Positions 135-60,875 of a stretch of DNA of 64,000 nucleotides are shown here, one piece after another. The translations under genes were made by a program, and so were the position numbers. This stretch comes from Lentibacillus sp. CBA3610 (GTDB lineage: Bacteria; Bacillota; Bacilli; Bacillales; Amphibacillaceae). The notes below the pieces were generated by a model that saw only the letters and a program-made list of their open reading frames with translations, was not told where the DNA came from and did not search any database. The stretch's first letter is position 1. Each line of letters starts with the position of its first letter. The DNA lies in the NCBI RefSeq assembly GCF_013373365.1, contig NZ_CP035925.1, positions 372,001 to 436,000 of the forward strand. Reading direction: 5' to 3'.

Positions 135-150
135 TGTGATACAGTTCACT
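135..150 (+). promoter_or_regulatory. Crp/Fnr-type site before the oxidase operon
   Basis: TGTGATACAGTTCACT matches TGTGA-N6-TCACA in 9 of 10 specified positions. A TAGGAT hexamer at 172-177 could be the -10 box; that start point would place the site centre near -41.5, as in class II Crp/Fnr promoters. The same geometry recurs before the DUF2249 operon (57972-57987) and the radical SAM gene (59658-59673). The regulator encoded at 58297-58989 is the obvious candidate, but binding is inferred. Confidence 0.6.
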
Positions 151-381: not shown

Positions 382-398
382 TAAGGGAGGTAAATGTG

Positions 399-860
399 AT
401 GCATAAACATGAAAAAATATGGCTGACAATAAGCAGTATTATGATTATTGGTTTTATGTTATTCACAGGTTATCAGACGTTTGCATTAGAGATGGGACCA
501 CCAAGTAATACGGAAACCCTCGATCCGCAAAAAGTGGATGAAACCGAGCCATTTGACGAACCTGGTGTTTATGAAGTGGGTGAAAATCAATATGAAGTGG
601 TCATGACACTTGAAGCGTTCATGTTCACACCGGCTGATATTGAAATTCCGGCAGGTTCTGAAGTGACTTTCATTATGACGTCAAAAGATGTGACACACGG
701 GTTTCAAATTGCTGGAACGAATGTGAACGCCATGGTCATGCCAGGATATGTTCAAACGATCACGCAAGCATTTGATGAACCGGGCGAGTATTTGATTTTA
801 TGTAATGAATATTGTGGTGCCGGTCACCAAATGATGTCCACTACAATCACTGTTAAATAA
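399..860 (+). CDS. cbaB: Cytochrome c oxidase subunit II (ba3 type, CuA protein)
   Basis: About 153 residues: one N-terminal membrane helix (about 8-30) and an outward-facing cupredoxin domain. CuA ligands are visible: a histidine in VTHGFQI, then CNEYCGAGH with a methionine just after it. The domain receives electrons from cytochrome c and passes them to subunit I. It is much shorter than a caa3 subunit II and has no cytochrome c domain, which fits the ba3 class. The ATG at 399 sits 8 bases after AAGGGAGG; a GTG directly upstream at 396 is possible but too close. The gene lies between subunit IIa and subunit I and is almost certainly cotranscribed with them. Confidence 0.92.
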   Translation: MHKHEKIWLTISSIMIIGFMLFTGYQTFALEMGPPSNTETLDPQKVDETEPFDEPGVYEVGENQYEVVMTLEAFMFTPADIEIPAGSEVTFIMTSKDVTHGFQIAGTNVNAMVMPGYVQTITQAFDEPGEYLILCNEYCGAGHQMMSTTITVK

Positions 861-874
861 AGGAGGGAAGGTCA

Positions 875-2548
875 ATGGCATTAGCTGAAAAGATTAAAGA
901 TAAAGCGAATCAGGCGATGGGATTAAACGAAGAAGATGCTCGAATATCAAAGTCATATTTTACCGTTTCGTTTATTGCCTTGTTATTTGGAGGAGTCTTT
1001 GGCTTGCTGCAGGGTTTAAATCGTGCAGGACTTCTGGAACTTCCATCATGGTATGATTATTATCAAGTATTGACATCACACGGCCTATTATTAGTTCTTG
1101 TATTTACATCATTTTTTGCCATTGGTTACTTTTATGCGGGTATGTCCCACACATTAGGGGGCTTGATTCCAAAAGTCAGGAAGATGGTATGGATCGGCTT
1201 TGGCATGAAGCTGGTAGGTTTTGTGTTTTCTGCAGTTCCAATTGTGATGGGTGAAGCAAGCGTCATGTACACATTTTACCCGCCACTGCAGGCATCACCA
1301 TGGTTTTATATCGGATTGGTATTAATTGTGTTAGGTGTATGGATGGCTGCATTTGGCGCATTTATCCAAGTGGCAAATTGGCGTAAAAATCACAAAGGCC
1401 AACATTTGCCAATTCTATCATTCTTTGCAACAGGTGTTTTTGTTCTATTATTCTTTGGCAGTATTCCAGTAGCCATTGAGGTGTTCATGATTATCCCGTG
1501 GGCATTCGGCTGGGTGGAAACGATTAATGTCATGCTGAGCCGGACCTTATTCTGGGCATTCGGCCACACATTAGTCAACATTTGGTATTTAACAGCCCTA
1601 TCAGCATGGTATGTCATTGTACCAAAAGTCATTGGCGGCCGTCGTTTCAGTGATACGTTAACACGCGTTGTCATTATTCTGCTGGTTATCCTGAATATCC
1701 CCGGCGGATTCCACCACCAAATCGTTGACCCGGGTATTACCGAATCGGTTAAATATCTGCATGTATTCATGAGTTTGGCCATCGGATTCCCATCATTAAT
1801 GACAGCATATGCCATGTTCAGTGTATTTGAACGTACAGGCAGGGCAAAAGGTGCGAAAGGGTTATTCGGTTTCTTTAAAAAGCTGCCATGGGGAGATGCA
1901 CGTTTCCTGGCACCAATGATTGCCATGATTGCATTTATACCAGCCGGTGCTGGCGGAATTGTACAAACAACAAACCAGTTAAACCAGGTTGTCCATAACT
2001 CACTGTGGGTCGTCGGACACTTCCACTTAACATTAGGAATGACTGTAGCCTTAACCTTCTTTGGAGTCAGCTACTGGTTGGTGCCATATATTTCAAAACG
2101 TGTGTTAACGCCGGCCATGAACAAATTTGGCGTCATTACTACAATTCTTTGGACAATTGGTATGTCGTTGATGTCGATTTCGATGCACCTGGTCGGATTA
2201 CTGGGATCACCAAGAAGAACATCCTACTCAACATATGGCGACAACGCTACCGCATTAGGCTGGGACCCATATTTAATCTTCCTGGGAATTGGGGGAACCA
2301 TCCTGATTATTGCAGTCATCATGCAAGTGTATGCGGTATTCCATCTGATGTTCCGTGCTCCTAAGGGTGAGGAAGAATTCCCGATTGGCGAAGTAGAAGA
2401 CAAAGCAAGTAAAACACCATTCTGGACCGAACGCTGGAGCCGCACTATTCTTATCATGCTGGTGGTTGTGGCGATGGGATATGTTATTCCACTGGTTGAC
2501 TTTATCGGCTATGCACCACCGGGATCACCACCATTCCAATTGTGGTAA
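875..2548 (+). CDS. cbaA: Cytochrome c oxidase subunit I (ba3-type heme-copper oxidase)
   Basis: 557 residues with about 13 membrane helices. The heme and CuB ligands are visible: a helix-II histidine in TSHGLLLV, the CuB histidine and nearby tyrosine in GHTLVNIWYL, the HH pair in GGFHHQIVDPG, and the heme-binding histidines in VVGHFHLTLG. It reduces oxygen to water at the heme/CuB centre and pumps protons across the cytoplasmic membrane. It follows subunit II by 14 bases with GGAGGG before the ATG. The divergent helix II and lack of subunits III and IV fit the B-type (ba3-like) oxidases, which usually have high oxygen affinity. A hairpin terminator follows. Confidence 0.95.
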   Translation: MALAEKIKDKANQAMGLNEEDARISKSYFTVSFIALLFGGVFGLLQGLNRAGLLELPSWYDYYQVLTSHGLLLVLVFTSFFAIGYFYAGMSHTLGGLIPKVRKMVWIGFGMKLVGFVFSAVPIVMGEASVMYTFYPPLQASPWFYIGLVLIVLGVWMAAFGAFIQVANWRKNHKGQHLPILSFFATGVFVLLFFGSIPVAIEVFMIIPWAFGWVETINVMLSRTLFWAFGHTLVNIWYLTALSAWYVIVPKVIGGRRFSDTLTRVVIILLVILNIPGGFHHQIVDPGITESVKYLHVFMSLAIGFPSLMTAYAMFSVFERTGRAKGAKGLFGFFKKLPWGDARFLAPMIAMIAFIPAGAGGIVQTTNQLNQVVHNSLWVVGHFHLTLGMTVALTFFGVSYWLVPYISKRVLTPAMNKFGVITTILWTIGMSLMSISMHLVGLLGSPRRTSYSTYGDNATALGWDPYLIFLGIGGTILIIAVIMQVYAVFHLMFRAPKGEEEFPIGEVEDKASKTPFWTERWSRTILIMLVVVAMGYVIPLVDFIGYAPPGSPPFQLW

Positions 2549-39084: not shown

Positions 39085-39369
39085 ATGTTTCAATATGAAC
39101 AAGAAGCTGCAATGCAACAAGACCGTGAAGATTTAATCGGGCTTTTGAAGATGCGGTTTGGCTCGCTTGAACCTGATGTGGTTGAGGCGATTTACCAATT
39201 GGATGACTTTGATACGATTGAACGGTTAATTTTAGTCGGGGCGAATGCGCCGGATTTTAAGACATTTTTGGAAGAGCTGGAAGAAGGGGAAGGGACGTTT
39301 AGAATCGTTGGTGAACGATTTAACCCGCTGGAGTATATGTCCCACCATGGTGATGCTGATGAAAGGTAA
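39085..39369 (+). CDS. Uncharacterised protein in the nar operon (2), overlapping narG
   Basis: 94 residues, acidic and mostly helical (QDREDLIGLLKMRFGSLEPD, AIYQLDDFDTIERLILVGAN). The C-terminus GERFNPLEYMSHHGDADER lies over the narG ribosome site and start codon, with 11 bases of overlap. That arrangement suggests translational coupling to narG. AAGGTGAGGG precedes the ATG. Family not recognised; a role in nitrate reductase assembly or regulation is only a guess. Confidence 0.7.
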   Translation: MFQYEQEAAMQQDREDLIGLLKMRFGSLEPDVVEAIYQLDDFDTIERLILVGANAPDFKTFLEELEEGEGTFRIVGERFNPLEYMSHHGDADER

Positions 39370-42300
39370 TAAAAACAAATTATTCAAACATCTAAAATTT
39401 TTGAAACCCGGCAAGCGTATTGATGACGGGTGGGCCGAAGAGAGTCCCAGACAGCGTGATTGGGAATCCGTGTACCGAAACAGGTGGGCACATGACAAAG
39501 TTGTCCGGTCAACGCACGGTGTAAACTGTACCGGTTCATGCAGTTGGAAAATTTACGTAAAAGACGGGATTATTACATCGGAAACCCAGCATACGGATTA
39601 TCCGTCAACCGGTGATGACTTCCCGGAATACGAACCAAGAGGCTGTCCAAGAGGTGCCAGTTTTTCCTGGTACACATACAGTCCTGTTCGTGTGAAATAT
39701 CCGTATGTACGCAGTGATCTTTACCGGCTTTGGAAAGAAGAACGCGATGCAGGACACGACCCTGTCACATCGTGGAAGAATATTACCAGTGATCCCGACA
39801 AACGGCAGCAATATGTACGTTCGCGGGGTAAAGGCGGTTTTGTCCGGGCAGACTGGCGGGATGTCTGTGTCATGATTGCCAGTTCTTTGATACATACGAT
39901 AAAAAAATATGGTCCGGACCGTATCACCGGGTTCAGTCCGATTCCGGCCATGTCGATGGTCAGCTATTCCGGCGGGACACGATTTTTATCACTGATCGGC
40001 GGCAATATTCTCAGTTTCTACGACTGGTATGCTGATTTACCGCCAGCTTCTCCGCAAGTATGGGGAGAACAGACGGATGTACCGGAAAGTGCTGACTGGT
40101 ATAATTCGAAATACTTTATCATTTGGGGTACGAATTTACCGCAGACCAGAACTCCGGATGCCCACTTTATGGTTGAATCACGCTATAACGGAACAAAAGT
40201 GGTTGGTGTGAGTCCGGACTACTCCGATTATGAAAAGTTTGCCGATATTTGGCTGCCGGCCAGAGCAGGCACGGACGGTGCACTGGCGATGGGGATGACA
40301 CATGTCATATTGAAAGAGTTTTACGTGGATGACCCAACGCCTTATTTTATAAATTACGCCAAAAAATTTACTGACTTGCCGTTTTTGATTACGATCGATC
40401 AACAAGATAACGCGTATCGCTCAGGCCGGTTTTTGCATGCTGATGATATGACATCTGATGAAGAGCTTGGCGAGTGGAAAACGGTTGTCTGGGATCTTAA
40501 TACAAACAGCACAGCGGTACCCAATGGGACGCAGGGACACCGCTGGGACGGCGATAACAAATGGAACCTGAACCTGGAAAAAGAAGATGGCACCACGATC
40601 AATCCTGAACTCAGTTTCCTGAACATGGCTGATGAGACGATACAGGTCGAGTTTCCATATTTCGCAAAAGAACATGGTGATATTGTGAAACGCGGTGTAC
40701 CTGTGAAACATATGCAGGACAGAAATGGAAACCACCTCCGTGTGACAACGGTCTATGATTTAATGATGGCCCATACAGGGGTCAGTCGTGGGCTGCCAGG
40801 GAATTATCCAAGCGATTATCAGGATCCGAAACCATATACGCCGGCTTGGCAGGAAAGTATCACAGGTGTCAATCAGCAGCACGTGATTCAAGTAGCACGG
40901 GAATTCGCCGATAATGCTAAACGCACAGAAGGCAAATCCATGATTGCAATGGGTGGCGGAACAAATCACTGGTACCACAGTGATCAAATCTACCGGTCGA
41001 TTTTGAACCTGGTATTGCTGACAGGTTCGCAAGGTGTCAACGGCGGTGGCTGGGCGCATTATGTCGGACAGGAAAAGGTTCGTCCCGTTGAAGGCTGGCA
41101 GACGCTCGCTTTCGCAAAGGACTGGGGCAGTGCTCCAAGACAGCAAAATGGAACGTCTTTCTTCTACTTTGCCACCGATCAATACCGGTACGAAGAACAA
41201 GATGTCATGAAAGATACAGCATGGGACGGCAAATACAATGACATGCATCCTGCTGATATCAATGCGCTGGCGGCACGGCTCGGATGGCTCCCGTCCTATC
41301 CGCAGTTCTCCCAAAACGCGATCGATCTGGTTAAAAAAGCAAGAGAAAACGGGGCGGAAACCGAGCAGGACGTTATTGATACAATCGTCAATCAGCTGAA
41401 AAACGGTGATATTGACTGGTCCATCGAAAACCCGGATGACCCCCGTAACTTTCCGCGCGTTTTCTTCAATTGGCGCTCGAATTTGCTTGGTGACAGCGGA
41501 AAAGGACATGAATTTTTTGTAAAGCATTTAATCGGCGGGGATGACCAGGTCATGGCGGCTCCTGAATCATCATGGCGGCCTGAAACAATCAATGTTAAGG
41601 ATAAAGGAGCAGAAGGCAAGACAGATTTATTTGTCAGCATCGACTTTCGGATGACAAGCTCCGGGCTGTTTTCGGATATTGTGCTGCCGGCTGCAACCTG
41701 GTATGAAAAGTACGATATCAGTACGACGGATCTGCATCCATTCATCCATCCATTTAACGCAGCCATATCACCACCATGGGAATCCAAAAGTGACTGGGTG
41801 ACATTCCGTGAAATCAGTAAAGTATTCTCAGAACTTGCGGAAGAACATTTACCGGAGGAAATAGAGGAGATTCAATCGTCGCCATTAGGCCATGATACTC
41901 GTGACGAAATTGCCCAGCCAAGCGGCAAAATTCTGGACTGGCGAAAAGGCGAAGTTGAAGCCATTCCGGGCAAAACGATGCCAAATCTCTCTGTTATTAA
42001 ACGGGATTATCCGAACGTTTATCAGAAAATGACGACAATCGGTCCTGCTTTGAAAAAAGGTTACGGCATGAAAGGTGTTAAATTGCCGGGCGATAAAGTA
42101 TTTGAGGAGTTAAAGCAACGCCTGGGTGTCTCGAAACGGGAAGGACTTGGCAATGGTAATCCGGACCTTTACACAGATATTCAAGCAGCGGAAACGATTC
42201 TTTTGATGTCCGGCGCTACAAATGGAAGACGTGCCGTGGAAGGCTGGCAGTCAATGGAAGAAAAGACCGGACAAAATCTGACTGAAATTGCCAAAGGACA

Positions 42301-43042
42301 CGAAGAGACATCTTATACATTAGCTGATATTACCGCCCAGCCGCGTCATACGATTTCCACACCGGTCTGGAGTGGCCTTGAGAAAGGTGGGCGACGCTAT
42401 TCACCGTTCACAGTGAATACGGAGTACAGTATTCCATGGAGGACACTGACAGGCAGACAAAGCTTTTATCTTGACCACGAAATGATACGCGATTTCGGTG
42501 AAGGATTGCCGACTTATCTTCCGCCGGTTAATAAAGGTCCTTATGTCAAAGGAGAAGATGAGCCGGATCATGATGATAAGTCGATTACCGTCCGCTATTT
42601 GACCCCGCACCAAAAGTGGGGCATTCACACGATGTTTACTGAAAGCTCCCCGATGGTCCAGCTGTTCCGCGGCTGGCAAGTGGTCTGGATGCACGAGGAA
42701 GACGGGGCGTCAATTGGCGTGAAGGATAATGACTGGATTGAGGTCTATAACCGGAATGGCGCTATTTCCGCAAGGGTCGTGCTAACCTATCGGTTGCCAA
42801 GAGGGACGGCATATATGTATCATGCCCAGGACCGGACAATGGGTGTACCGGGAACCACTGTCACGAAAAAACGGGGCGGGACCCATAACAGTGTGACCCG
42901 GATTACGACGAAACCAACCCACATGATCGGTGGTTATTCACAACTGAGCTATGGGTTCAACTATTACGGTCCGACCGGAAGTCAGCGTGATACCATCGCA
43001 ATTATTAAACCATTGAAGGAGGTCAATTGGCTTGAGAGTTAA
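39359..43042 (+). CDS. narG: Respiratory nitrate reductase, alpha subunit
   Basis: About 1227 residues, the usual NarG length. The FS0 iron-sulfur ligands are seen at the start: STHGVNCTGSCSW (His 53, Cys 57, Cys 61) and a later cysteine in PRGCPRGAS. The Mo-ligating aspartate lies in SFYDWYADLPPASPQ (NarG has Asp here). Mo-bisPGD-binding blocks follow, such as GVSPDYSDYEKFADIWLP and NWRSNLLGDSGKGHEFF. No Tat signal is present, so it is a cytoplasmic-facing enzyme. ATG 39353 is an alternative start; a longer frame from 39245 overlaps another gene. It reduces nitrate to nitrite with NarHI. Confidence 0.96.
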   Translation: MKGNKNKLFKHLKFLKPGKRIDDGWAEESPRQRDWESVYRNRWAHDKVVRSTHGVNCTGSCSWKIYVKDGIITSETQHTDYPSTGDDFPEYEPRGCPRGASFSWYTYSPVRVKYPYVRSDLYRLWKEERDAGHDPVTSWKNITSDPDKRQQYVRSRGKGGFVRADWRDVCVMIASSLIHTIKKYGPDRITGFSPIPAMSMVSYSGGTRFLSLIGGNILSFYDWYADLPPASPQVWGEQTDVPESADWYNSKYFIIWGTNLPQTRTPDAHFMVESRYNGTKVVGVSPDYSDYEKFADIWLPARAGTDGALAMGMTHVILKEFYVDDPTPYFINYAKKFTDLPFLITIDQQDNAYRSGRFLHADDMTSDEELGEWKTVVWDLNTNSTAVPNGTQGHRWDGDNKWNLNLEKEDGTTINPELSFLNMADETIQVEFPYFAKEHGDIVKRGVPVKHMQDRNGNHLRVTTVYDLMMAHTGVSRGLPGNYPSDYQDPKPYTPAWQESITGVNQQHVIQVAREFADNAKRTEGKSMIAMGGGTNHWYHSDQIYRSILNLVLLTGSQGVNGGGWAHYVGQEKVRPVEGWQTLAFAKDWGSAPRQQNGTSFFYFATDQYRYEEQDVMKDTAWDGKYNDMHPADINALAARLGWLPSYPQFSQNAIDLVKKARENGAETEQDVIDTIVNQLKNGDIDWSIENPDDPRNFPRVFFNWRSNLLGDSGKGHEFFVKHLIGGDDQVMAAPESSWRPETINVKDKGAEGKTDLFVSIDFRMTSSGLFSDIVLPAATWYEKYDISTTDLHPFIHPFNAAISPPWESKSDWVTFREISKVFSELAEEHLPEEIEEIQSSPLGHDTRDEIAQPSGKILDWRKGEVEAIPGKTMPNLSVIKRDYPNVYQKMTTIGPALKKGYGMKGVKLPGDKVFEELKQRLGVSKREGLGNGNPDLYTDIQAAETILLMSGATNGRRAVEGWQSMEEKTGQNLTEIAKGHEETSYTLADITAQPRHTISTPVWSGLEKGGRRYSPFTVNTEYSIPWRTLTGRQSFYLDHEMIRDFGEGLPTYLPPVNKGPYVKGEDEPDHDDKSITVRYLTPHQKWGIHTMFTESSPMVQLFRGWQVVWMHEEDGASIGVKDNDWIEVYNRNGAISARVVLTYRLPRGTAYMYHAQDRTMGVPGTTVTKKRGGTHNSVTRITTKPTHMIGGYSQLSYGFNYYGPTGSQRDTIAIIKPLKEVNWLES

Positions 43043-44528
43043 GGCACAGGTAGCAATGGTTATGCATCTGGATAAATGTATTGGCTGTCACACCTGTTCT
43101 GTCACATGCAAAACGACGTGGACAAATCGTCCGGGAACAGAATATATGTGGTTTAACAACGTGGAAACAAGACCAGGTGTCGGTTACCCGCAGGAATGGG
43201 AAAATCAGGAGTATTATAAAGGCGGATGGGAGTTAAAAAAAGGGAAGCTTCGGTTACGGGCAGGTGGTCCGGTAACCAAGCTGATGAATATTTTTTATAA
43301 CCCCAACATGGGAACAATGGATGATTATTATGAGCCATGGACATATGATTATGAACATTTGATTGACAGTCCAAAATCGGAAAATCTTCCGGTTGCAAGG
43401 CCAAAATCATTAATTACCGGCAACTATATGGATAAACCGGAATGGGGATCCAACTGGGATGACGATCTCGCTGGCGGAAGTGAAGTCGTCAAACGTGATC
43501 CGACTGTCAAAAAGCTGCAAGATCATATTGCCACTGAATATGAAAAAACATTCATGATGTATTTGCCGAGAATTTGCGAACATTGTCTGAATCCGTCGTG
43601 TGTGGCATCTTGTCCATCCGGTGCGCTGTACAAACGGGATGAAGATGGCATTGTACTGGTTGATCAGGAAGAATGCCGCGGCTGGCGGTTCTGCATGAAT
43701 GGCTGCCCGTATAACAAAGTTTACTATAATTGGAATACACACAAGGCGGAAAAGTGTAACTTCTGCTATCCAAGAACTGAGGCGGGACTTCCAACCATTT
43801 GCTCCGAGACATGTGTCGGTAAGATCCGTTACATCGGTGTTGTTTTGTATGATGCCGACAAGGTAAAGGAAGCGGCATCGGTTGAAGACCCGCAGGATTT
43901 ATATGAAGCACAGCTTGATTGCTTTCTTGACCCATTTGATCAAGAAGTGATGAAGGCGGCAAAAGAGGCCGGGGTCAATGATGAATGGATCAAGGGGGCA
44001 CAGGAATCACCCATTTACAAAATGGCGATGAAGTGGAAAATTGCCCTTCCGCTGCACCCGGAATATCGCACATTGCCAATGGTCTGGTATGTGCCGCCGC
44101 TCAGCCCGATTATGAATCATATTACAAATGAACAGGAATTGAACACGGACGGCTATATTCCGGCAGTTGACCAGATGCGGATACCAATCGAATATCTGGC
44201 ATCCATCCTCTCAGCAGGTGACACGCGTGTTATCCGTAAAGTTTTGCTGAAAATGACAGCTATGCGTGTCCATATGCGTTCTGTTAATGTTGGCGGAATT
44301 GATGATCTGTCAAAAAGTGAATTACTTAAAGAAGCCGGAGTAGACGTTGAGACGATTGAAGAAATGGTCCGGCTATTGGGTGTGGCCAAATATGATGAGC
44401 GATTTGTTATTCCAACCGGACGCAGGGAGATGGACGATGACCTGCATTACAGACAAGGGGCGTGCAGTCTTGAAGACCTTGCGCCACCTGAAGGCATGGT
44501 AACGTATCCGTTTGAAAGGGGGAGCTGA
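43032..44528 (+). CDS. narH: Respiratory nitrate reductase, beta subunit
   Basis: 498 residues. Four cysteine groups hold the iron-sulfur clusters: CIGCHTCSVTCKTTW, CEHCLNPSCVASCPSGAL, CRGWRFCMNGCPYNK (Trp in the place of a Cys marks the 3Fe-4S site) and CNFCYPRTEAGLPTICSETC. It passes electrons from NarI haems to NarG. The TTG start lies within the last codons of narG, preceded by GAAGGAGG, which suggests coupling. Confidence 0.96.
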   Translation: MRVKAQVAMVMHLDKCIGCHTCSVTCKTTWTNRPGTEYMWFNNVETRPGVGYPQEWENQEYYKGGWELKKGKLRLRAGGPVTKLMNIFYNPNMGTMDDYYEPWTYDYEHLIDSPKSENLPVARPKSLITGNYMDKPEWGSNWDDDLAGGSEVVKRDPTVKKLQDHIATEYEKTFMMYLPRICEHCLNPSCVASCPSGALYKRDEDGIVLVDQEECRGWRFCMNGCPYNKVYYNWNTHKAEKCNFCYPRTEAGLPTICSETCVGKIRYIGVVLYDADKVKEAASVEDPQDLYEAQLDCFLDPFDQEVMKAAKEAGVNDEWIKGAQESPIYKMAMKWKIALPLHPEYRTLPMVWYVPPLSPIMNHITNEQELNTDGYIPAVDQMRIPIEYLASILSAGDTRVIRKVLLKMTAMRVHMRSVNVGGIDDLSKSELLKEAGVDVETIEEMVRLLGVAKYDERFVIPTGRREMDDDLHYRQGACSLEDLAPPEGMVTYPFERGS

Positions 44529-44529
44529 A

Positions 44530-45123
44530 ATGAAGACCTATCAATCTGAATTGTTAATGGTTGCATCGCGTCTGCTCAGTTATCCATCCGGCAATGATGA
44601 AAATGATGTCATGAATTGTGTGGAAGAGATGAACGTGTCAGAAACCCTTAAACAAGAAGTGTGGAATGCGGCAAATGCAGTTTACCGCATTCCACTGCAT
44701 GACTTACAGGAAATATATGTTTCGACGTTTGATTTAAAGGAAAAATTGGGGCTCTACCTTTCAGCACATGAATTCGGTGATAGTCCGAAACGCGGTGCAG
44801 CTTTAATTAAACTTCAAAAAGCAGTGAATCAAGCAGGCTATGAGCGTGTTGACGATGAATTGGCTGATTATATCCCGATGTTGTATGAACTGGTCGCGAT
44901 CACAAGTGACAAGGTGAATCATGAACGTCTTATCAAAAGACTGTCTGCCGTTACACAGCGAATTATGGACCATTTGCCTGAGACAAGCCCCTATTATCCA
45001 ATAATGCAGGCTTTAATGGAAAATGTCTTTGAAGCACCGTCCAAAGAGGATTTGGAAAAAATGGAACAGCAGCGGGAAAAAGCCGATCTGGAAGAATTGC
45101 CATACCCGATTATGTATACGTGA
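44530..45123 (+). CDS. narJ: Nitrate reductase assembly chaperone
   Basis: 197 residues, all helical, of the TorD/NarJ family. It has LLSYPSGNDENDVMNCVEEM, the YVSTFDLKEKLGLYLSAHEF signature and DYIPMLYELVAI. It assists Mo-cofactor loading into NarG. ATG 44530 has AGGGGGAG before it and is one base after the narH stop. The last 30 residues are charged (EKMEQQREKADLEELPYP). Confidence 0.93.
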   Translation: MKTYQSELLMVASRLLSYPSGNDENDVMNCVEEMNVSETLKQEVWNAANAVYRIPLHDLQEIYVSTFDLKEKLGLYLSAHEFGDSPKRGAALIKLQKAVNQAGYERVDDELADYIPMLYELVAITSDKVNHERLIKRLSAVTQRIMDHLPETSPYYPIMQALMENVFEAPSKEDLEKMEQQREKADLEELPYPIMYT

Positions 45124-45124
45124 C

Positions 45125-45255
45125 ACGGATATCGGCAAAAGAACGGGGTAATCAACAGAAGAGCGAGAATATCGACAGAAGAACAGGATAATCAATGAAA
45201 GCGCAAGAATATTGATAAAAAATCGGAAATATCAGCAGCAGAAGAGGAATTAGCA
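45125..45255. repeat. 20-bp purine-rich tandem repeats, locus 2 (between narJ and narI)
   Basis: Degenerate units such as ATATCGGCAAAAGAACGGGG, TAATCAACAGAAGAGCGAGA and ATATCGACAGAAGAACAGGA at about 20-base steps. They separate narJ and narI by 150 bases, where these genes normally touch. Confidence 0.75.
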
Positions 45256-45273
45256 GCAAGAGGGGGTGTAATA

Positions 45274-45969
45274 GTGGCAGAGATATTTTGGTGGGTTATT
45301 TTTCCATATGTAACGCTGGCTATCATGATCTTCGGAAGTATTTACCGCTTCGCCTATCGTCAGATGACCTGGGTTGCGCCATCAACTGAGTTTTTTGAGA
45401 AAAAAAGGTGGCTGCGGATTGGATCGCCATTGTTCCACTATGGGCTTCTGTTTGCGTTTATCGGTCATTTAATGATGTTGATCCCTATGAAATTTTATTA
45501 TTGGGTTGGTATACCAGACCATTTGTATCATTTATTCGCAATTGTTGCGGGAGGTATGGCGGGATTGATGGTTGTGGCAGGTGCTGTCATTTTGCTGATC
45601 CGCAAAATGGTCATTGACCGTGTACGGGTGCATGCAACGTTTGCGGACTTCTTTAGTGTCATCAGTCTGATTATCGTTGCTGGTATTGGTGTGTATATCA
45701 CGCTGATCTACAATACAACAGTTGAAGCTTATGAATACCGGGGAACGATTGGACCATGGTTTCGGAGTTTATTTGCTTTCCGTCCGCAATATGAACTGAT
45801 GACCGGTGTCCCGTTTATATTCCAATTACACGTGATTACGGCTTTTGCTTTATTTGCATCCATTCCGTTCACACGATTAGTTCACCTTTACAGTGCACCA
45901 ATCCATTATCTGAATCGGCCGTACCAGCAATACCGGTCACGGTCAGCTTATAAACGAAAAGGGATTTAA
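45274..45969 (+). CDS. narI: Respiratory nitrate reductase, gamma subunit (cytochrome b)
   Basis: 231 residues with five helices. Haem b histidines fit NarI: SPLFHYGLLFAFIGHLMML in helix 2 and FQLHVITAFALFASIPFTRL then VHLYSAP in helix 5. It oxidises menaquinol in the membrane and feeds NarH. GTG start after GAGGGGG. Operon position after narGHJ, though a repeat tract separates it from narJ. Confidence 0.95.
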   Translation: MAEIFWWVIFPYVTLAIMIFGSIYRFAYRQMTWVAPSTEFFEKKRWLRIGSPLFHYGLLFAFIGHLMMLIPMKFYYWVGIPDHLYHLFAIVAGGMAGLMVVAGAVILLIRKMVIDRVRVHATFADFFSVISLIIVAGIGVYITLIYNTTVEAYEYRGTIGPWFRSLFAFRPQYELMTGVPFIFQLHVITAFALFASIPFTRLVHLYSAPIHYLNRPYQQYRSRSAYKRKGI

Positions 45970-51248: not shown

Positions 51249-51258
51249 GTTTTGAGAT

Positions 51259-51294
51259 AAGGTTGATTCATCACAATGGATCGGCCTTTTTTTA
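51259..51294 (+). terminator. Terminator of yitW
   Basis: AAGGTTGATTCAT pairs with ATGGATCGGCCTT (with G-U pairs), followed by a T run. It argues against any start for mobB before 51294. Confidence 0.75.
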
Positions 51295-51359
51295 TAACGG
51301 CAGTGAATCAGAACGCAACAACTTCAGCGAAATCAGCCAATTGTAAAGATGGGGTTATC

Positions 51360-55768: not shown

Positions 55769-55804
55769 GGTGATACAAATCAATTTCGTATCACTCTATT
55801 TATT
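55769..55804. terminator. Terminator between convergent genes
   Basis: AGGGTGATAC pairs with GTATCACTCT. It can serve both the ABC operon and the minus-strand PaaD-like gene. Confidence 0.75.
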
Positions 55805-55815: not shown

Positions 55816-56118
55816 TCAGCCAAATCCAAGTCGCTCCTTGGCACGGTCACTAATTTTGTCCGGCGTCCATGCCGGCTCCCATACCAAATCGATTTCAATA
55901 TGACCGACACCTTCTATCTGATTGACGCGATGTCTTACACCGTTCATAATACTGTCGTGCATTGGACACCCGGGAGTTGTGAGGGTCATGACAATTTTTA
56001 CGTTATCTTCAGCATCAACGGCGATACCGTAAACGAGCCCCAAATCCATAATATTAATTCCGAGTTCAGGGTCGATAACTTCAAATAAGGCCGCACCGAT
56101 TTTTTTCTCAAGTAACAT
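55816..56118 (-). CDS. PaaD-like (DUF59/MIP18) protein, second copy
   Basis: 100 residues: EVIDPELGINIMDLGLVYGI, MTLTTPGCPMHDSIMNGV with the single conserved cysteine, and DLVWEPAWTPDKISDRAKER. It is a paralogue of the yitW product at 50937. It is the last gene after the heme-copper-like protein and DUF2249 pair on the same strand, so it probably helps iron-sulfur or nitrogen-oxide-related maturation there. GGAG lies before the ATG. Confidence 0.88.
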   Translation of the reverse strand: MLLEKKIGAALFEVIDPELGINIMDLGLVYGIAVDAEDNVKIVMTLTTPGCPMHDSIMNGVRHRVNQIEGVGHIEIDLVWEPAWTPDKISDRAKERLGFG

Positions 56119-56160
56119 AGCTGCCAGCTCCTTTCTGTGAAATATTCTTCGCCCTCATAT

Positions 56161-56205
56161 CATTCAGTGAAGAAAAGCACTCCACTGAATGAAGTTTCAC
56201 TTTAC
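56161..56205 (+). repeat. 45-bp palindromic element, copy 2
   Basis: CATTCAGTGAAG...CTCCACTGAATG stem, then AAGTTTCACTTTA. It overlaps the stop codon of the minus-strand gene at 56197. See copy 1 at 29739. Confidence 0.75.
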
Positions 56206-57453
56206 CAAAACCCGAATAATTGACAATGTGTATAATAATGATGTGAATGCAAGCAGGCCCTGGAAAATAAATACCATCACGTTGATATAGAGCAGTCCGC
56301 TTATCGTCAGGCCGGCTACACTGATCATAAAGAGTGTGAATAAGATGACACTATTTTTTTCATTGATCATGTCTTTTAGTGTTGGCACGTTTTCTTTACC
56401 GATTTTATTTGAGTATTTATGTGTCCACCACAGAAATGGGACAATTTTATAAAGGTAGCCAAGGATACTGAATATAATCCAGGCCATTGTATATAAAAAG
56501 ATGAGCCAGCCCCAGACAGACATTTCTTGAATGCCAAAAATACTAAACACGAAAGCAAGCACATGTACACCAAGGCCGTTCAGGATGGCAACAAGTGAGA
56601 AAGAAAAAGGTTTATCGAGCTTTTTTTTCAATCGCTTGGCAAGAATTTCCCGTATATCAAGTACAAAAAAGAAGAATCCGGCCATCAGCACAAACCAGCC
56701 GATGGTTTCGAGCAATGCAATATCTGTCCAAAATGAACCAATCAACATGATCAAACCTGCCATATAAGTTATGAACGAAGGCTTTGCCCATTTCATTGAA
56801 TACCCGTGGGATAGGCTGAACATGGGTACAAGCTTATAGGAAAAGCCAAAAATCAAAAGTGTGAACCAGCCGGAAACACCAAGTGCAATATGGGATGAAA
56901 GAATTGTTCCATGGCTGCTGATTCCGCCTTCAGCGAGGTTCCATGCGAGCAAAAAACCGGCCGCAATTGTCAGAAAGAGACATGTTATCGCTCCAAGGAT
57001 AAAGCTTGTCATCATATTTTTGTTTTCCTGTTTGGAAATCGTGATGACCATTTGAATAATGAACATGATGATTCCAATAATGGCTATAATGCCGCCATAT
57101 AATGCCTCGTTAGGTGCGATTCCCAGCATTATGGAAAAAAGCGTGACGCCAATAGCAGTGATAATAAACTGGATATAGCCGAATGTCTGGTTCCAGATCG
57201 GTGTCAATAAGGCAACTGGTACAAGCTGATACATCGCACCCATTGCAATCATGGCTGCGTAGCCCAGGACCAGAAAGTGGGCGCCCATCCAAATATCCGG
57301 GATCCGGAACTGCCCCGTAGCCAGAATATCATTGTGTATAAAAAGGACAATTTGAGATATGACAAAGGCTGCAAGGGCATACAGAATAAACGCCAGTGGC
57401 AGCTTAATGTTTGTGTTTGATTGCATGCTTCCGCCAGAGGCCATATTAATCAC
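56197..57453 (-). CDS. Heme-copper-oxidase-like / NnrS-type 12-helix membrane protein
   Basis: About 415 residues with roughly 12 helices. Histidines appear at helix ends in the pattern of heme-copper oxidase subunit I relatives: WMGAHFLVLGYAAMIAMGA, ILSSHIALGVSGWF, SLSHGYSMKWAK and WWTHKYSNK. It is shorter than a true oxidase, and I see no CuB HH pair, so oxygen or NO reduction is not shown. The start is ambiguous: GTG 57453, ATG 57444 or ATG 57426. It overlaps the upstream DUF2249 gene by eight bases. Neighbours suggest a nitrogen-oxide role. Confidence 0.72.
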   Translation of the reverse strand: MINMASGGSMQSNTNIKLPLAFILYALAAFVISQIVLFIHNDILATGQFRIPDIWMGAHFLVLGYAAMIAMGAMYQLVPVALLTPIWNQTFGYIQFIITAIGVTLFSIMLGIAPNEALYGGIIAIIGIIMFIIQMVITISKQENKNMMTSFILGAITCLFLTIAAGFLLAWNLAEGGISSHGTILSSHIALGVSGWFTLLIFGFSYKLVPMFSLSHGYSMKWAKPSFITYMAGLIMLIGSFWTDIALLETIGWFVLMAGFFFFVLDIREILAKRLKKKLDKPFSFSLVAILNGLGVHVLAFVFSIFGIQEMSVWGWLIFLYTMAWIIFSILGYLYKIVPFLWWTHKYSNKIGKENVPTLKDMINEKNSVILFTLFMISVAGLTISGLLYINVMVFIFQGLLAFTSLLYTLSIIRVLVK

Positions 57454-57661
57454 CAGATTTCGTTATCGTTATTTTGAAGCTGCCATCCTCCTGAGCTTCT
57501 GTTTCATGAGCATACCCGCGATCATCGAGTTCTTCATATAAAAACAGCGGACGGCGGTCATTAATGATGGCCAGTGATTCACCATTTTTCAGTTTATCCA
57601 GTGCTTTCAGAGTGCGCATCATCGGCTGTGGCGGTTCAAGCCCGCGATTATCAATCGTCAT
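57446..57661 (-). CDS. DUF2249 protein (SirA/TusA-like), gene 2 of the operon
   Basis: 71 residues: RGLEPPQPMMRTLKALDKLK, NGESLAIINDRRPLFLYEEL and YAHETEAQEDGSFKITI match DUF2249, a small TusA-like fold without the cysteine. The start overlaps the preceding DUF2249 gene by four bases. DUF2249 proteins often occur with hemerythrin and nitrogen-oxide genes, but have no settled function. Confidence 0.82.
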   Translation of the reverse strand: MTIDNRGLEPPQPMMRTLKALDKLKNGESLAIINDRRPLFLYEELDDRGYAHETEAQEDGSFKITITKSGD

Positions 57662-57909
57662 TCTTCATCACCTTCTTTCTTGGTGTACGTTACTTTCCAA
57701 TGCTTTTTCGCAATCTTTTCGGTTTCATATACAAAGCCGCGTCGTTTCAGTATTTTATGCAATGGAAGGGGGTTAAACGGCGCATGCAGGATAAAAGCTT
57801 CTCCGTCATTTAAGCTTTTAACTGTCCCCATGATTTTGTCAAACGGTTCTTTTTTCATGGCCAAATCCTCACGAACGTCAAGCTCCACAATATTCTCTTG
57901 CTTCTGCAT
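57658..57909 (-). CDS. DUF2249 protein, first gene of the operon
   Basis: 83 residues: ELDVREDLAMKKEPFDKIMG, SLNDGEAFILHAPFNPLPLH, RRGFVYETEKIAKKHWKV. The NPLPLHKIL motif is typical of DUF2249. GAGGTG precedes the ATG. A Crp/Fnr-type site lies 63 bases upstream with a TATCAT -10 box. It starts a four-gene minus-strand operon: DUF2249, DUF2249, heme-copper-like protein, PaaD-like protein. Confidence 0.82.
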   Translation of the reverse strand: MQKQENIVELDVREDLAMKKEPFDKIMGTVKSLNDGEAFILHAPFNPLPLHKILKRRGFVYETEKIAKKHWKVTYTKKEGDEE

Positions 57910-57944
57910 AACATCACCTCGTCTATATTCTGAAGTCTACCTAT

Positions 57945-57987
57945 ATGATAATGATTTTCAATTAGGAAAGAAGTGATGTGTGTCACA
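57945..57987 (-). promoter_or_regulatory. Crp/Fnr-type promoter of the DUF2249 operon
   Basis: The site AGTGATGTGTGTCACA (57972-57987) fits TGTGA-N6-TCACA with one mismatch. On the minus strand TATCAT lies at 57950-57945. The predicted start near 57938 puts the site centre at about -41.5, the class II position. Confidence 0.7.
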
Positions 57988-58046
57988 TTTTTAATGTCTT
58001 AACACTTTTGTCATGGTGGAGATGAAGGATTGCTTTAGCTTAGTGA

Positions 58047-58165
58047 AAATCAGAAGAAGCGCAGGAATATCGTCAGAAGAGCAAGAGTATCAGCAGAAGA
58101 ATGGAGATATCGTCAGAAGAGCAGGAGTATCAACAGAAGTGAAGAAATATCAGCAGAAGAAGCCA
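58047..58165. repeat. 20-bp purine-rich tandem repeats, locus 3
   Basis: Units such as AATATCGTCAGAAGAGCAAG, AGTATCAGCAGAAGAATGGA and GATATCGTCAGAAGAGCAGG in about six degenerate copies. Same family as at 35636 and 45125. Confidence 0.8.
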
Positions 58166-58296
58166 GATAATATAGGAAAAGCGAAATTCGGGAAACCTTT
58201 CAGGAACGTTTTTCCCTATTGGGGTTTTACGCCAGTTGCATGCGGATAACGAAAGGGCCGTTAATCAAAAAAGACCACCCAGGCGGATGATCTTTC

Positions 58297-58989
58297 TTAA
58301 AACAGTTCGTCCTCCAATGCATCGATATCTAAAATAATAGCACCGGAATTGTCGGTTGCAATAAGGCTTTGTTTTTTCAGCTGGGTCAGTGTGCGGCTGA
58401 CGGTTTCCCGGCTGGATCCGATCATGTTGGCAAGCTCACGGTTGGTGAATTGGGTTGTGAGTTTGATCATGCCGCTGCTTGTTTCTTTTCCATATCCTTT
58501 GGAAAGGCGTAATAACAACATAATAATTTGTTCATATGTGTTATGCAGAATTTTTTCTTCCAGACGTGCTTGTAAATCAACAATAATATCACCGAGCACA
58601 CGAAACAATTTTATACTAATTTCCGGGTGGTTAATCAGGTAATTTTCAAATGATTCAATTGGAATATAAATTAAAATCGCATCTTCCAGGATTTCAGCAT
58701 GTGCGGGGTAATTGTCCTGCCTGAAAAAGCCCTGATGCGGAAACATGTCTCCCGGCTGAAGGACATTTACAATCTGTTCTTTTCCATGGAAGTCGGTTTT
58801 ATAGATTTTAACTTTTCCCTGGTGAATAAAGTAGACATTAGTCAGTGGATCAGCTTGCATGAATATATGTGTGCCGTGCCGATACATACGGTGCTTAGCC
58901 AGGTCGATTATCGGCTCAATCTCATGGTCGGTCAGATCTTTAAACAATGGAACTCTTTGAAGCAGTTCCTGTATAGTACCTGTATTCAT
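58297..58989 (-). CDS. Crp/Fnr-family regulator without cysteines
   Basis: 230 residues: an N-terminal cNMP-like sensor barrel (about 15-130, with VYFIHQGKVKIYKTDFHGKE), a dimer helix (about 130-155) and a C-terminal winged helix: FTNRELANMIGSSRETVSRT with the recognition helix SSRETVSRTL. The R-E-x-x-x-R arrangement suits TGTGA-type half-sites. The protein has no cysteine at all, so it cannot hold an FNR-type iron-sulfur cluster by cysteine ligands. Sensing by haem, NO or an unknown ligand is possible. It is the likely regulator of the nearby Crp/Fnr sites. Confidence 0.9.
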   Translation of the reverse strand: MNTGTIQELLQRVPLFKDLTDHEIEPIIDLAKHRMYRHGTHIFMQADPLTNVYFIHQGKVKIYKTDFHGKEQIVNVLQPGDMFPHQGFFRQDNYPAHAEILEDAILIYIPIESFENYLINHPEISIKLFRVLGDIIVDLQARLEEKILHNTYEQIIMLLLRLSKGYGKETSSGMIKLTTQFTNRELANMIGSSRETVSRTLTQLKKQSLIATDNSGAIILDIDALEDELF

Positions 58990-59105
58990 TGCGGTTACTC
59001 CTTTCGCAGGGAATTAGCGGATAATCATCATATTACCCCATTCTATTTAACCTTATCATATAATAAACGTCCTGATGACTGCAATTTGGTGAACTTTTGT
59101 GAGTG

Positions 59106-59121
59106 TGTGATGAATATCATA
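59106..59121 (+). promoter_or_regulatory. Possible Crp/Fnr-type site before the third DUF2249 gene
   Basis: TGTGATGAATATCATA keeps TGTGA and four of five bases of TCACA. A weak CATCAT at 59143-59148 has the same spacing as at the other sites. Less convincing than the others. Confidence 0.4.
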
Positions 59122-59219
59122 TGCAGAGGGTGCCCCTTGTCACATCATCATGGCTGATCACTGCTTATGATAAAGGTGCGAGAAGAAAGAATAATGATTC
59201 CATTTGGAGGGATTTAGGA

Positions 59220-59459
59220 ATGAATGATACACAATTTGCTGCCAAAATACATGCACCTGAAATCGATCCGCGCAACAGGCATCCGAAAATCTTTGAAGTG
59301 TTCGATGGCTTGAATTCAGGAGAGTTTATGGAACTTTCCAATGATCATGATCCAAAACCGCTGCATTATCAATTTATGATTGAACGTGAAGACACGTTTT
59401 CATGGGAATATTTAGAGCAAGGACCATCCATGTGGCGTGTAGCAATTGGGAAAAAATAA
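59220..59459 (+). CDS. DUF2249 protein, third copy
   Basis: 79 residues: IHAPEIDPRNRHPKIFEVFD, GLNSGEFMELSNDHDPKPLH and SWEYLEQGPSMWRVAIGKK. PKPLHYQF replaces the PLPLHKIL of the copy at 57658. ATG 59220 has GGAGGG before it; the longer frame from 59103 has no ribosome site. It stands alone between the regulator and the radical SAM gene. Confidence 0.82.
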   Translation: MNDTQFAAKIHAPEIDPRNRHPKIFEVFDGLNSGEFMELSNDHDPKPLHYQFMIEREDTFSWEYLEQGPSMWRVAIGKK

Positions 59460-59506
59460 ATATTGGAGCAGCTTTTTGGAGCAATTTCGATGACTTTATG
59501 TACTGA

Positions 59507-59540
59507 ACAATTACCCCTCATAAAACGGGGCATAATTGTC
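59507..59540. other. Hairpin after the third DUF2249 gene
   Basis: ACAATTACCCC pairs with GGGGCATAATTGT (one bulge). No T run follows directly; it may be a weak terminator. Confidence 0.5.
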
Positions 59541-59657
59541 CGTGTTTGCCGGTCATTAAGCGTTGTGACACGTTAAGCCTTTGAATTTTATTATCAGCGG
59601 AAAAGCCCTTTTCGCTGATTGAATCTATTATGTCTATTTTATGACAGATGCCACATA

Positions 59658-59701
59658 AGTGAAAGAAATCACATCCTCTATCTATCCAAAAGGCGTATAG
59701 T
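59658..59701 (+). promoter_or_regulatory. Crp/Fnr-type promoter of the radical SAM gene
   Basis: AGTGAAAGAAATCACA (59658-59673) fits TGTGA-N6-TCACA with one mismatch. TATAGT at 59696-59701 is a good -10 box. The predicted start near 59708 puts the site centre at about -42. Confidence 0.72.
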
Positions 59702-59732
59702 GAATCCAGCAATCATTTTCAGGAGGGGTATC

Positions 59733-60875
59733 ATGTTTCCAAGAGACTACAATGAAAATCCATTTATCGTCATTTGGGAGTTAACACGTGCCTGTGAATT
59801 AAAGTGTCTGCACTGCAGAGCTGAAGCACAGTACCACCGGCATCCATTGGAACTGTCATTTGAAGAAGGCAAAAAATTAATTGACGATATTTATGAAATG
59901 GATAATCCGATGCTTGTGTTTACCGGTGGCGATCCGCTGATGCGTCCGGATGTATTCGATATTGTGGAATATGCCGTCAAAAAAGGTGTGCGTGTTTCCA
60001 TGACACCGTCTGCTACACCAAACGTAACAAAAGAAGCCATGCAAAAAGCAAAGGACGTTGGGTTGTCCAGATGGGCTTTTTCCATTGATGGCCATTGTGC
60101 TGAGGTTCATGACCATTTTCGTGGTACGTCGGGTTCGTTTGATTTAACGATGAATGCGATTAAGTATCTGCATGAGCTGGAAATGCCTCTTCAGATTAAT
60201 ACGGTTATCTCCAGGTATAACGTGGACTACCTGGAAGAAATGGCTCAAATGGTTGAGGATTTGAATTGCGTTCTCTGGAGTGTCTTTTTTCTCGTACCAA
60301 CGGGAAGAGGTAAAGAAAGCGATATGATTTCACCTGCTGAACATGAAAAGGTATTACGCTGGCTTTATAAACTATCCAAACGTGTGCCATTTGACATTAA
60401 AACAACAGCAGCCCAGCATTACCGGCGTGTTGTTATCCAGGGTAAAATACGTGAAAATAAGAACAGCGCTGATACGATTCGCTATGAAGATGCCTTGATG
60501 AAAGGAAAAACCGGTCAAATCGATGGGTTGGGACGTGCACCAAAAGGCGTCAACGATGGAAATGGGTTTGTGTTCATTTCCCATACGGGTGATGTTTACC
60601 CAAGCGGACTCCTGCCGATAAAAGCCGGCAATGTACGTCAGAATCCACTTCCAACGATTTACCGCGAATCTGAAGTGTTCCAGAATCTCAGGAATCCGGA
60701 TAAATATAAAGGCAAATGTGGTGTGTGTGAATTCCGGCATGTGTGCGGAGGCTCAAGATCCCGCGCGTATAATGTGACAGGCGACTACATGGAAAGCGAA
60801 CCGTATTGTGTTTACGTTCCAAAAGCATGGCGTGAACAGCATAGACGCGAAAAAAGACAAAAAACTTCTAACTGA
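59733..60875 (+). CDS. Radical SAM/SPASM protein (NirJ/AhbD-like, TIGR04053 type)
   Basis: 380 residues. The radical SAM cluster motif is TRACELKCLHCRAEAQ (CxxxCxxC, about 19-26) with the GGDP motif in LVFTGGDPLMRPD. A C-terminal SPASM segment has CGVCEFRHVCGGSRSRA and a later cysteine in SEPYCVYVPK. Relatives act in haem or haem d1 synthesis or peptide modification. The nitrate context would suit a haem-related role, but it is not proven. ATG 59733 has AGGAGGGG before it. A Crp/Fnr promoter precedes and a terminator follows. Confidence 0.85.
   Translation: MFPRDYNENPFIVIWELTRACELKCLHCRAEAQYHRHPLELSFEEGKKLIDDIYEMDNPMLVFTGGDPLMRPDVFDIVEYAVKKGVRVSMTPSATPNVTKEAMQKAKDVGLSRWAFSIDGHCAEVHDHFRGTSGSFDLTMNAIKYLHELEMPLQINTVISRYNVDYLEEMAQMVEDLNCVLWSVFFLVPTGRGKESDMISPAEHEKVLRWLYKLSKRVPFDIKTTAAQHYRRVVIQGKIRENKNSADTIRYEDALMKGKTGQIDGLGRAPKGVNDGNGFVFISHTGDVYPSGLLPIKAGNVRQNPLPTIYRESEVFQNLRNPDKYKGKCGVCEFRHVCGGSRSRAYNVTGDYMESEPYCVYVPKAWREQHRREKRQKTSN

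Follow-up and report, generated by a model that had tools for sequence, protein, structure and literature searches.

What joint task could occupy two DUF2249 proteins, a membrane protein and a PaaD-like protein encoded in one operon, with a third DUF2249 protein, a Crp/Fnr-family regulator and a radical SAM/SPASM enzyme encoded alongside? The question is raised by a locus of Lentibacillus sp. CBA3610, located in a 64,000-nt stretch of contig NZ_CP035925.1 (positions 372,001 to 436,000), here referred to as the window, in whose numbering all positions below are given. The original prediction described this arrangement as a possible module for handling nitric oxide (NO) or haem under anaerobic conditions, and the positions and genes it listed are borne out (Table 1). 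The first operon gene, D1, overlaps the second, D2, by 4 bases; D2 overlaps the gene of the 418-aa membrane protein, here called HCO, by 8 bases; and a gap of 78 bases separates HCO from the PaaD-like gene (PaaD). The third DUF2249 gene (D3) and the radical SAM gene are likewise confirmed by their profile scores. Comparative evidence supports the NO and haem reading, with 'haem' fitting the radical SAM gene best. Tentatively, we regard the locus as an accessory island for nitrate and NO respiration, in which D1-D2-HCO-PaaD and D3 may maintain iron enzymes in cells that make or breathe NO.

The operon is conserved and linked to NO reductase genes

A gene-neighbourhood survey, suggested with the original prediction, finds the neighbourhood conserved. 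A scan of named genomes returned 280 HCO relatives, and the best 80 of these 280 were used with up to 10 kb of flank, some flanks being cut by contig ends. Nearly all of the 80 loci belong to Bacillales, judged by record title. Homologues of D1, D2 and PaaD occur in 79 of 80 loci each, and D1-D2-HCO-PaaD is contiguous and in the same order in 75, with equivalents in other phyla. Of the 80 loci, 61 also have D3, 58 have a Crp gene at 50% identity or more and 36 have the radical SAM gene. NO reductase (NOR) genes of three types lie within 10 kb: qNOR at 16 loci, bNOR (the CuA NO reductase) at 8 and sNOR-like at 7. Taking all 43 oxidase-like neighbours as bNOR proved wrong, since 26 of the 41 that could be checked carry the oxidase tyrosine motif; two neighbours of at most 450 aa were left out of this motif check. 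The remainder divide into eight bNOR-like proteins (GHTLVN) and seven sNOR-like proteins (GHIFAN, 25–27% identity), the latter label being based on the GHIFAN motif and the general character of the class. Ba3-type oxidases, which are not specific to NO, occur at 26 or more of the 80 loci.

Across 120 genomes of the family, HCO is found in 27 and bNOR in 46. All 27 HCO genomes contain bNOR, compared with 19 of the 93 without HCO; counted by genus, the figures are 16 of 16 with HCO and 5 of 30 without. HCO and bNOR share a contig, at most 60 kb apart, in 18 of the 27 genomes. NarG occurs in 23 of the 27 HCO genomes and in 27 of the other 93, and NirK in 19 of 27 and 6 of 93, the NirK figures being weaker as none of the 120 genomes scores above the curated NirK cut-off. 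The bNOR count retains 46 of 68 matching genomes (at least 62% identity), matches of 45–51% being taken as ba3-type oxidases; the NirK count retains 25 of 31, with two fragments and four multicopper-oxidase-like genomes dropped. Among 299 genomes of the order, 54 contain HCO, and a bNOR (at E values up to 1e-200 only), qNOR or sNOR-like gene is present in 46 of these 54, compared with 18 of the 245 without HCO. All 15 genomes carrying an sNOR-like gene have HCO. Fisher values overstate the significance of these associations because the genomes are related and the two samples overlap, making the genus count the fairer one. D1-D2-HCO-PaaD is conserved and linked to NO genes.

The window itself contains a two-gene bNOR unit 54 kb away from the operon. 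Its subunit I has a ba3 oxidase as closest PDB match and carries GHTLVN where ba3-type neighbours have GHPLVY, replacing the tyrosine that functions in the active site of B-family subunit I. On this motif the gene encodes a putative bNOR, a B-family subunit I with its active-site tyrosine replaced. Beyond the window, the same genome has a NirK-like gene, which at 194 bits does not reach the curated cut-off, directly beside an sNOR-like gene (G000:C1:2037313-2040746).

HCO has a predicted haem-copper oxidase fold without the catalytic histidines

The structural model of HCO, built with 71 sequences, has 12 long helices, a mean predicted local distance difference test score (pLDDT) of 91.6 and a predicted template modelling score (pTM) of 0.90. 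Its best structural match is the cbb3 oxidase 3mk7_D (Z 36.7, root-mean-square deviation (rmsd) 2.8 over 385 residues), and cNOR 4xyd is matched at Z 36.0 (rmsd 3.0 over 381 residues), the top matches being tied within one Z unit. The Pfam family COX1 is matched by 14 of 19 HCO family members (best E value 1.2e-9), the window protein itself being unmatched, and a PDB sequence search with the 418-aa protein returned no matches.

Haem-copper oxidases and NorB use six histidines as metal and haem ligands, including those of the low-spin haem and of CuB/FeB. In an alignment to rhizobial NorB, H59 of helix 2 falls at the low-spin haem histidine and H188 of helix 6 at a CuB/FeB histidine; the helix 7 histidine pair and the helix 10 HxH are absent. 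HCO was considered as a catalytic subunit I of a haem-copper oxidase or NO reductase, and this assignment was rejected because the helix 7 and helix 10 ligands are missing. H59, H188, H216 and H297 are invariant across the 71 HCO sequences. H59 and H188 are also histidines in Thermus and rhizobial HCO and, read by eye, in the archaeal and Aliarcobacter proteins, while H216 and H297 are not retained in rhizobial HCO. On its predicted structure, HCO is a non-catalytic relative with the NorB/CcoN fold that lacks the catalytic histidines, and it probably binds a single haem through H59 and H188 of helices 2 and 6.

The label 'heme-copper/NnrS-like' first given to this protein holds in its haem-copper half, by predicted fold, and fails in its NnrS half: none of the 19 HCO members matches NnrS (PF05940) at E values up to 10 with HMMER filters on. 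Nor is HCO a renamed NnrS, because Rhizobium etli and Shinella have a separate NnrS-annotated gene beside the equivalent operon, which in R. etli has an NnrS Pfam match of 372 bits. NnrS, itself related to haem-copper oxidases, resembles HCO as a membrane protein tied to denitrification. Pei et al. reportedly described, in 2014, three-unit haem-copper-oxidase homology proteins with 12 helices and two conserved histidines in a denitrification context, and are said to have proposed one haem for such two-histidine relatives; their work may anticipate part of the module. The haloarchaeal DUF2249 paper cites Pei et al. 2014 for the DUF2249 link.

The DUF2249 proteins match Thermus DrpA and DrpB

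D1, D2 and D3 all score above the DUF2249 (PF10006) cut-off of 29.5 bits (Table 1) and are the only DUF2249 genes detected in a search of the genome. D2 additionally exceeds the TusA (PF01206) cut-off of 28.6 bits. In TusA sulfurtransferases the CPxP motif holds the catalytic cysteine; D2 has Pro-Pro at that position, with P10 and P11 present in 84 of 84 aligned sequences, and it was rejected as a TusA sulfurtransferase on this account. The PaaD-like protein exceeds the PF01883 cut-off of 23.5 bits and scores 107.4 bits against the SUF-associated TIGR02945, below the curated cut-off of 143.4. Ric, ScdA and YtfE are iron–sulfur (Fe-S) repair proteins linked to NO. A likeness to them lies in a ScdA_N-hemerythrin gene family at 5 of the 80 loci and in DUF2249-hemerythrin fusions, which both the Thermus and the haloarchaeal DUF2249 papers mention; the operon itself differs in having no hemerythrin domain.

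D3 is 56% identical to a Thermus protein taken as DrpA, and D1 and D2 match the two DUF2249 domains of a 273-aa protein in the DrpB position, D1 matching the first domain both there and in a fused rhizobial protein. By these sequence matches, D3 would correspond to Thermus DrpA, and D1 together with D2 to DrpB. As in the window, the Thermus thermophilus DrpA/DrpB proteins (PMC6282519) are encoded beside nar, with HCO and PaaD homologues a few genes further along. The two loci differ in that the Thermus protein fuses D1 and D2 behind a DUF1858 domain and that a transposase gene and a protoglobin gene intervene; HCO and PaaD are without mention in the accessible parts of the DrpA/DrpB paper (PMC6282519).

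DUF2249 proteins are, contrary to the view that none has a known activity, not wholly unstudied: deletion of Thermus drpA/drpB gives a nitrate-respiration phenotype (PMC6282519). The drpAB double mutant has 90 compared with 900 U of nitrate reductase, with NarG apparently above wild type, and in drp mutants the activity of the nar and dnr promoters is altered and nitrate dependence is lost; DrpB is membrane-associated (PMC6282519). In Haloferax mediterranei, all four DUF2249 genes are up under denitrification, and a fusion of DUF2249 to an Fe-S carrier NTPase is described (haloarchaeal DUF2249 paper).

Equivalent gene sets occur on plasmids of other phyla

Eight plasmid records, a non-random sample located through their HCO or radical SAM proteins, were viewed. 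In T. thermophilus isolate TTHNAR1, the plasmid-borne nar genes are followed by two DUF2249 genes that fit drpA/drpB by place and length. Next come a gene for a transposase, a small gene and genes for a protoglobin, an unnamed protein and a metal-sulfur cluster factor; profiles built on the 80 loci recognise D3, D1+D2, HCO and PaaD among these genes. R. etli and Shinella share the order nor genes, hemN, D3, HCO, fused D1-D2, PaaD, NnrS and nirK, followed by one further gene and a Crp/Fnr gene. The same module is present on Sinorhizobium meliloti pSymA and an Ensifer plasmid, two records that are unannotated in this region and were read by an open reading frame search; the S. meliloti gene tags of the module gave no literature match. 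In Haloprofundus, HCO and genes resembling D3, D1 and D2 adjoin nirK. In Haloferax larsenii, HCO and the radical SAM gene are clustered with genes for a D2-like protein, a halocyanin, an oxidase homologue and a multicopper oxidase; confirmation of the multicopper oxidase as NirK was not obtained, and the 762-aa oxidase homologue has no NCBIfam match at E values up to 1e-20. An Aliarcobacter plasmid carries a D2-like gene, HCO and PaaD, with no nitrogen-oxide gene recognised within 8 kb.

Four of the eight records (Thermus, R. etli, Shinella and Haloprofundus) show named nar, nir or nor genes; such genes are likely in pSymA and H. larsenii, the Ensifer record is unannotated and Aliarcobacter has none. 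This recurrence on plasmids of other phyla indicates that the DUF2249-type gene set is no local accident.

Promoter boxes link the operon, D3 and the radical SAM gene

Boxes of the Fnr/Crp pattern TGTGA-N6-TCACA stand upstream of D1, D3 and the radical SAM gene in the window, and D1 is also preceded by a Fur-type box, for which the consensus is 7-1-7. The shared promoter architecture originally proposed is seen across the 80 relatives as conserved boxes; it does not emerge from the window alone, where the pattern is not enriched. With at most one mismatch, the Fnr/Crp box precedes 39 of 79 D1, 33 of 61 D3, 32 of 37 radical SAM and 40 of 66 Crp entries, against base-shuffle expectations of 0.35, 0.35, 0.1 and 0.6, respectively. 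D2, HCO, PaaD and four other named genes have it in 0 to 2 entries each, and among 18 further gene families only qNOR is comparable (15 of 16), one family having it in 1 of 13 entries and 16 in none. The Fur-type box, at up to two mismatches, precedes D1 in 49 of 79 entries (0.45 expected), Crp in 9 of 66, HCO in 5 of 81, D3 in 3 of 61 and moaE in 1 of 20; it is absent from 17 of 18 other gene families, the exception again being qNOR (8 of 16). Shuffles for both box types comprised 20 runs that keep base composition only, the loci behind the counts are related, and the D3 and Crp boxes are not independent because the two genes are usually divergent. Counts of Crp boxes and cysteines cover the 66 homologues of at least 50% identity. 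The qNOR genes at 16 of the 80 loci (for example L068:6195-8558) combine both box types in the family.

Fur-type sites with at most one mismatch number two in the window, the D1 site and one at 27264, between two genes that by eye resemble an iron uptake system. In our promoter model for D1, with TATCAT at 57945-57950 and a start near 57938, the Fnr box would fall near -41.5, with the Fur box covering the -10. The radical SAM gene has an Fnr-type box but not a Fur box.

The window regulator has no cysteine, and the C-terminal CxxC-x3-5-C cluster of Bacillus-type Fe-S Fnr occurs in none of its 66 close homologues; it is therefore not a regulator of that type. A C-terminal cysteine cluster is present in 23 of 31 distant Crp paralogues at the same loci. 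The close homologues are not cysteine-free: one position, serine in the window, is cysteine in 39 of 67.

The radical SAM gene and oxygen-independent haem synthesis

The radical SAM protein is a member of TIGR04053 (cut-off 395 bits). Its gene occurs in 42 of the 120 family genomes, 40 of which have bNOR, 24 a NirK-like gene and 36 NarG, and of the 26 genomes that also carry HCO, 19 have the two genes no more than 10 kb apart. All 42 also contain a ChdC-family gene. The motifs CX3CX2C and CX2CX5CX2SX17C are present in 35 of 37 orthologue entries, the window protein being read by eye. The orthologues retain all four AuxII cysteines listed in PMC10452713 and have a serine at the position of Methanosarcina barkeri C324, one of three positions at which, according to that paper, AhbD of non-methanogens has a conserved Glu or Ser, none of them assayed. 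The H. larsenii gene scores 501.6 bits against TIGR04053, and its product is 48% identical to the window protein.

In Haloferax volcanii, deletion of ahbD (HVO_2144), located near nirK and norB, harms anaerobic growth only; haem rescued growth on dimethyl sulfoxide (DMSO) respiration and, together with DMSO, part of denitrifying growth (PMC5746218). HVO_2144 is 42% identical to the characterised M. barkeri enzyme (PMC8305020). The window protein resembles AhbD and HVO_2144 in radical SAM/SPASM family group, AuxII cysteine spacing and denitrification context, the likeness to HVO_2144 being drawn from published descriptions. It differs from AhbD in falling below the TIGR04545 cut-off, and Bacillaceae reach coproheme by another route. 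The general idea of AhbD ending the coproporphyrin pathway is not new, because a Journal of Biological Chemistry review states that AhbD or ChdC can finish it (PMC7242693). The oxygen-independent last step of haem synthesis in Bacillaceae was called yet unknown in 2024 (PMC10965808); assignment of an AhbD-type role to a TIGR04053 gene in Bacillaceae was not found in the literature searched, and a search for TIGR04053 gave no match there. We consider the radical SAM gene a reasonably probable candidate for the oxygen-independent coproheme decarboxylase of Bacillaceae.

A TIGR04053 gene 82% identical to that of the window is present in a 2.9-kb record that bears the name Campylobacter jejuni (NZ_CP029056.1); the record is more probably contamination than a true plasmid.

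A proposed role in maintaining iron enzymes, and its rivals

From these observations we infer haem binding, a carrier or repair role and haem synthesis. HCO would be a non-catalytic NorB/CcoN relative binding one haem, and the TusA-fold DUF2249 proteins and the PaaD-like protein would be small carriers, delivering or repairing Fe-S or iron cofactors such as those of nitrate reductase. A Crp/Fnr-type activator and Fur, the presumed ligands of the respective boxes, would turn the operon on and keep it off, so that low iron, or NO acting on Fur, would release it. The radical SAM enzyme would convert coproheme to haem without oxygen. The PaaD-like Fe-S factor, the fusions of DUF2249 to an Fe-S carrier NTPase and to hemerythrin, the ScdA_N-hemerythrin family and the Fur-type box point to maintenance.

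Several observations weigh against this proposal. Haem binding by HCO rests on two histidines, D2 has no TusA cysteine, and the AhbD profile TIGR04545 gives the radical SAM protein 384.7 bits, below its cut-off of 500. DrpA is located in the periplasm, a poor fit with a cytoplasmic carrier; the DrpA/DrpB authors prefer nitrate sensing; the same drp mutants also change promoter activity; and the Thermus strain is described as taking nitrate to nitrite only (PMC6282519). In the order, 8 of the 54 HCO genomes lack all three NORs searched; in the family, 19 genomes have bNOR without HCO; and related genomes were counted as independent, for which the genus count is a partial remedy. The Fnr/Crp pattern, at up to two mismatches, occurs 40 times in the whole window against 34.3 expected, a number reached in 21 of 100 shuffles. 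An Fnr-type box precedes 13 of 46 bNOR/ba3 subunit II entries, leaving over half without one, and the Fur-type box is absent in 30 of 79 D1 entries.

In Thermus, the double mutant loses most of its nitrate reductase activity despite the presence of NarG, favouring maturation or maintenance of a metalloenzyme over sensing alone. A nitrate or NO sensory system, in which the DUF2249 proteins signal to the Crp/Fnr-type regulator and HCO is a haem-based membrane sensor, is a doubtful alternative and, with NOR assembly, one of the two main rivals, with these points in its favour: drp mutants alter the nar and dnr promoters and lose nitrate dependence, DrpA is periplasmic and DrpB membrane-associated (PMC6282519), and a regulator gene is adjacent in many loci (within the flanks at 58 of 80). 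It sits poorly with the approximately 10-fold lower activity in a mutant that still has NarG (PMC6282519), leaves the PaaD-like protein and the Fur-type box unexplained, and has to accommodate 22 of 80 loci with flanks, some cut short by contig ends, in which no such Crp gene was detected.

The nesting of HCO genes within NOR genomes, and the qNOR (16), bNOR (8) and sNOR-like (7) genes within 10 kb at the 80 loci, would also suit a factor that assembles NO reductases and related haem-copper enzymes or inserts their cofactors. Such a role is unlikely, given that the partners (bNOR, qNOR, sNOR-like and rhizobial cNOR) are chemically unlike, that 8 of 54 HCO genomes are without the three NORs searched and 18 of 245 have a NOR without HCO, and that the Thermus effect falls on nitrate reductase (PMC6282519). 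HCO could instead be an NO-consuming or NO-transporting enzyme with the small proteins as its servants, as its nearest fold (NorB/CcoN) and NO-linked neighbourhood might suggest; the absence of the helix 7 and helix 10 histidines that NOR requires makes this quite improbable. Finally, D3, the Crp gene and the radical SAM gene are missing from the neighbourhood at some loci (present at 61, 58 and 36 of 80), as would be expected of neighbours with no common function, but the contiguous quartet at 75 of 80 loci, the recurrence of its parts together on plasmids of other phyla and the fusion of D1 and D2 in rhizobia and in DrpB render mere adjacency very hard to believe.

Features of the window

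Table 1. Positions of the operon, its neighbours, promoter boxes and respiratory genes in the window.
Feature	Position	Strand	Remarks
D1, DUF2249 protein	57658..57909	minus	First operon gene; PF10006 58.8 bits
D2, DUF2249/TusA-like protein	57446..57661	minus	PF10006 77.1 bits, PF01206 48.8 bits
HCO, 418-aa 12-helix membrane protein, predicted haem-copper-oxidase fold without the catalytic ligand set	56197..57453	minus	
PaaD/MIP18-like Fe-S assembly family protein	55816..56118	minus	Last operon gene; PF01883 65.6 bits
Crp/Fnr-family regulator without any Cys	58297..58989	minus	
D3, DUF2249 protein	59220..59459	plus	PF10006 85.6 bits
TIGR04053 radical SAM/SPASM protein, AhbD-like	59733..60875	plus	TIGR04053 537 bits
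Fnr/Crp-type box upstream of D1	57972..57987	minus	1 mismatch
Fur-type box upstream of D1	57946..57960	minus	1 mismatch to 7-1-7 consensus
Fnr/Crp-type box upstream of D3	59106..59121	plus	1 mismatch
Fnr/Crp-type box upstream of radical SAM gene	59658..59673	plus	1 mismatch
Terminator-like hairpin 3' of PaaD-like gene	55770..55794	minus	
bNOR (CuA NO reductase)-like subunits II and I	396..2548	plus	Subunit I 875-2548
Fnr/Crp-type box upstream of bNOR genes	135..150	plus	1 mismatch
Nitrate reductase genes	39245..45969	plus	narG, narI by search; narH, narJ by eye and position

The region shows no enrichment of terminator-like sites, with 2 found where 4.5 are expected. A second PaaD-like gene adjoins mobB-, moaE- and moaD-like genes (50913-52559), and the group of second PaaD-like gene, moaE and mobB is found again near the operon in many of the 80 loci. 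Two copies of a transposase-like gene, which we take to be IS110-like, are located at 8618-9739 and 61367-62397, the latter directly after the radical SAM gene and broken into two reading frames. Related intergenic tandem repeats of approximately 20, 40 and 60 bases occur at 58055-58169, 35668-35841 and 45129-45220, one of them between D1 and the Crp gene. A 52-base unit is repeated in tandem at 4083-4673 (11.4 copies, 91% matches).

Implications for NO biology and haem synthesis

In the literature searched, which covered few subscription papers, we found no description of the combined module, its nesting in NOR genomes, the DrpAB link or the Fur box. Parts of our reading are older ideas (DrpAB, 2018, and, reportedly, Pei 2014), and the two DUF2249 papers found present DrpAB as a system of Thermus and the haloarchaeal genes as hits in expression data. 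Taken to its furthest, the proposal would describe one ancient membrane-linked machine, in bacteria and haloarchaea, that rebuilds NO-damaged iron cofactors, with DrpA and DrpB as its parts rather than mainly a nitrate sensor and with TIGR04053 as the missing decarboxylase that lets Bacillaceae make haem while denitrifying; we put this forward as speculative and, as a whole, rather doubtful. The comparison joins three little-known small proteins into a conserved unit with a defined set of partners and control boxes. By sequence matches, it ties this unit to DrpA/DrpB, the sole DUF2249 proteins for which we found mutants described in the accessible literature, and it offers a concrete candidate for the oxygen-independent final step of haem synthesis in Bacillaceae.

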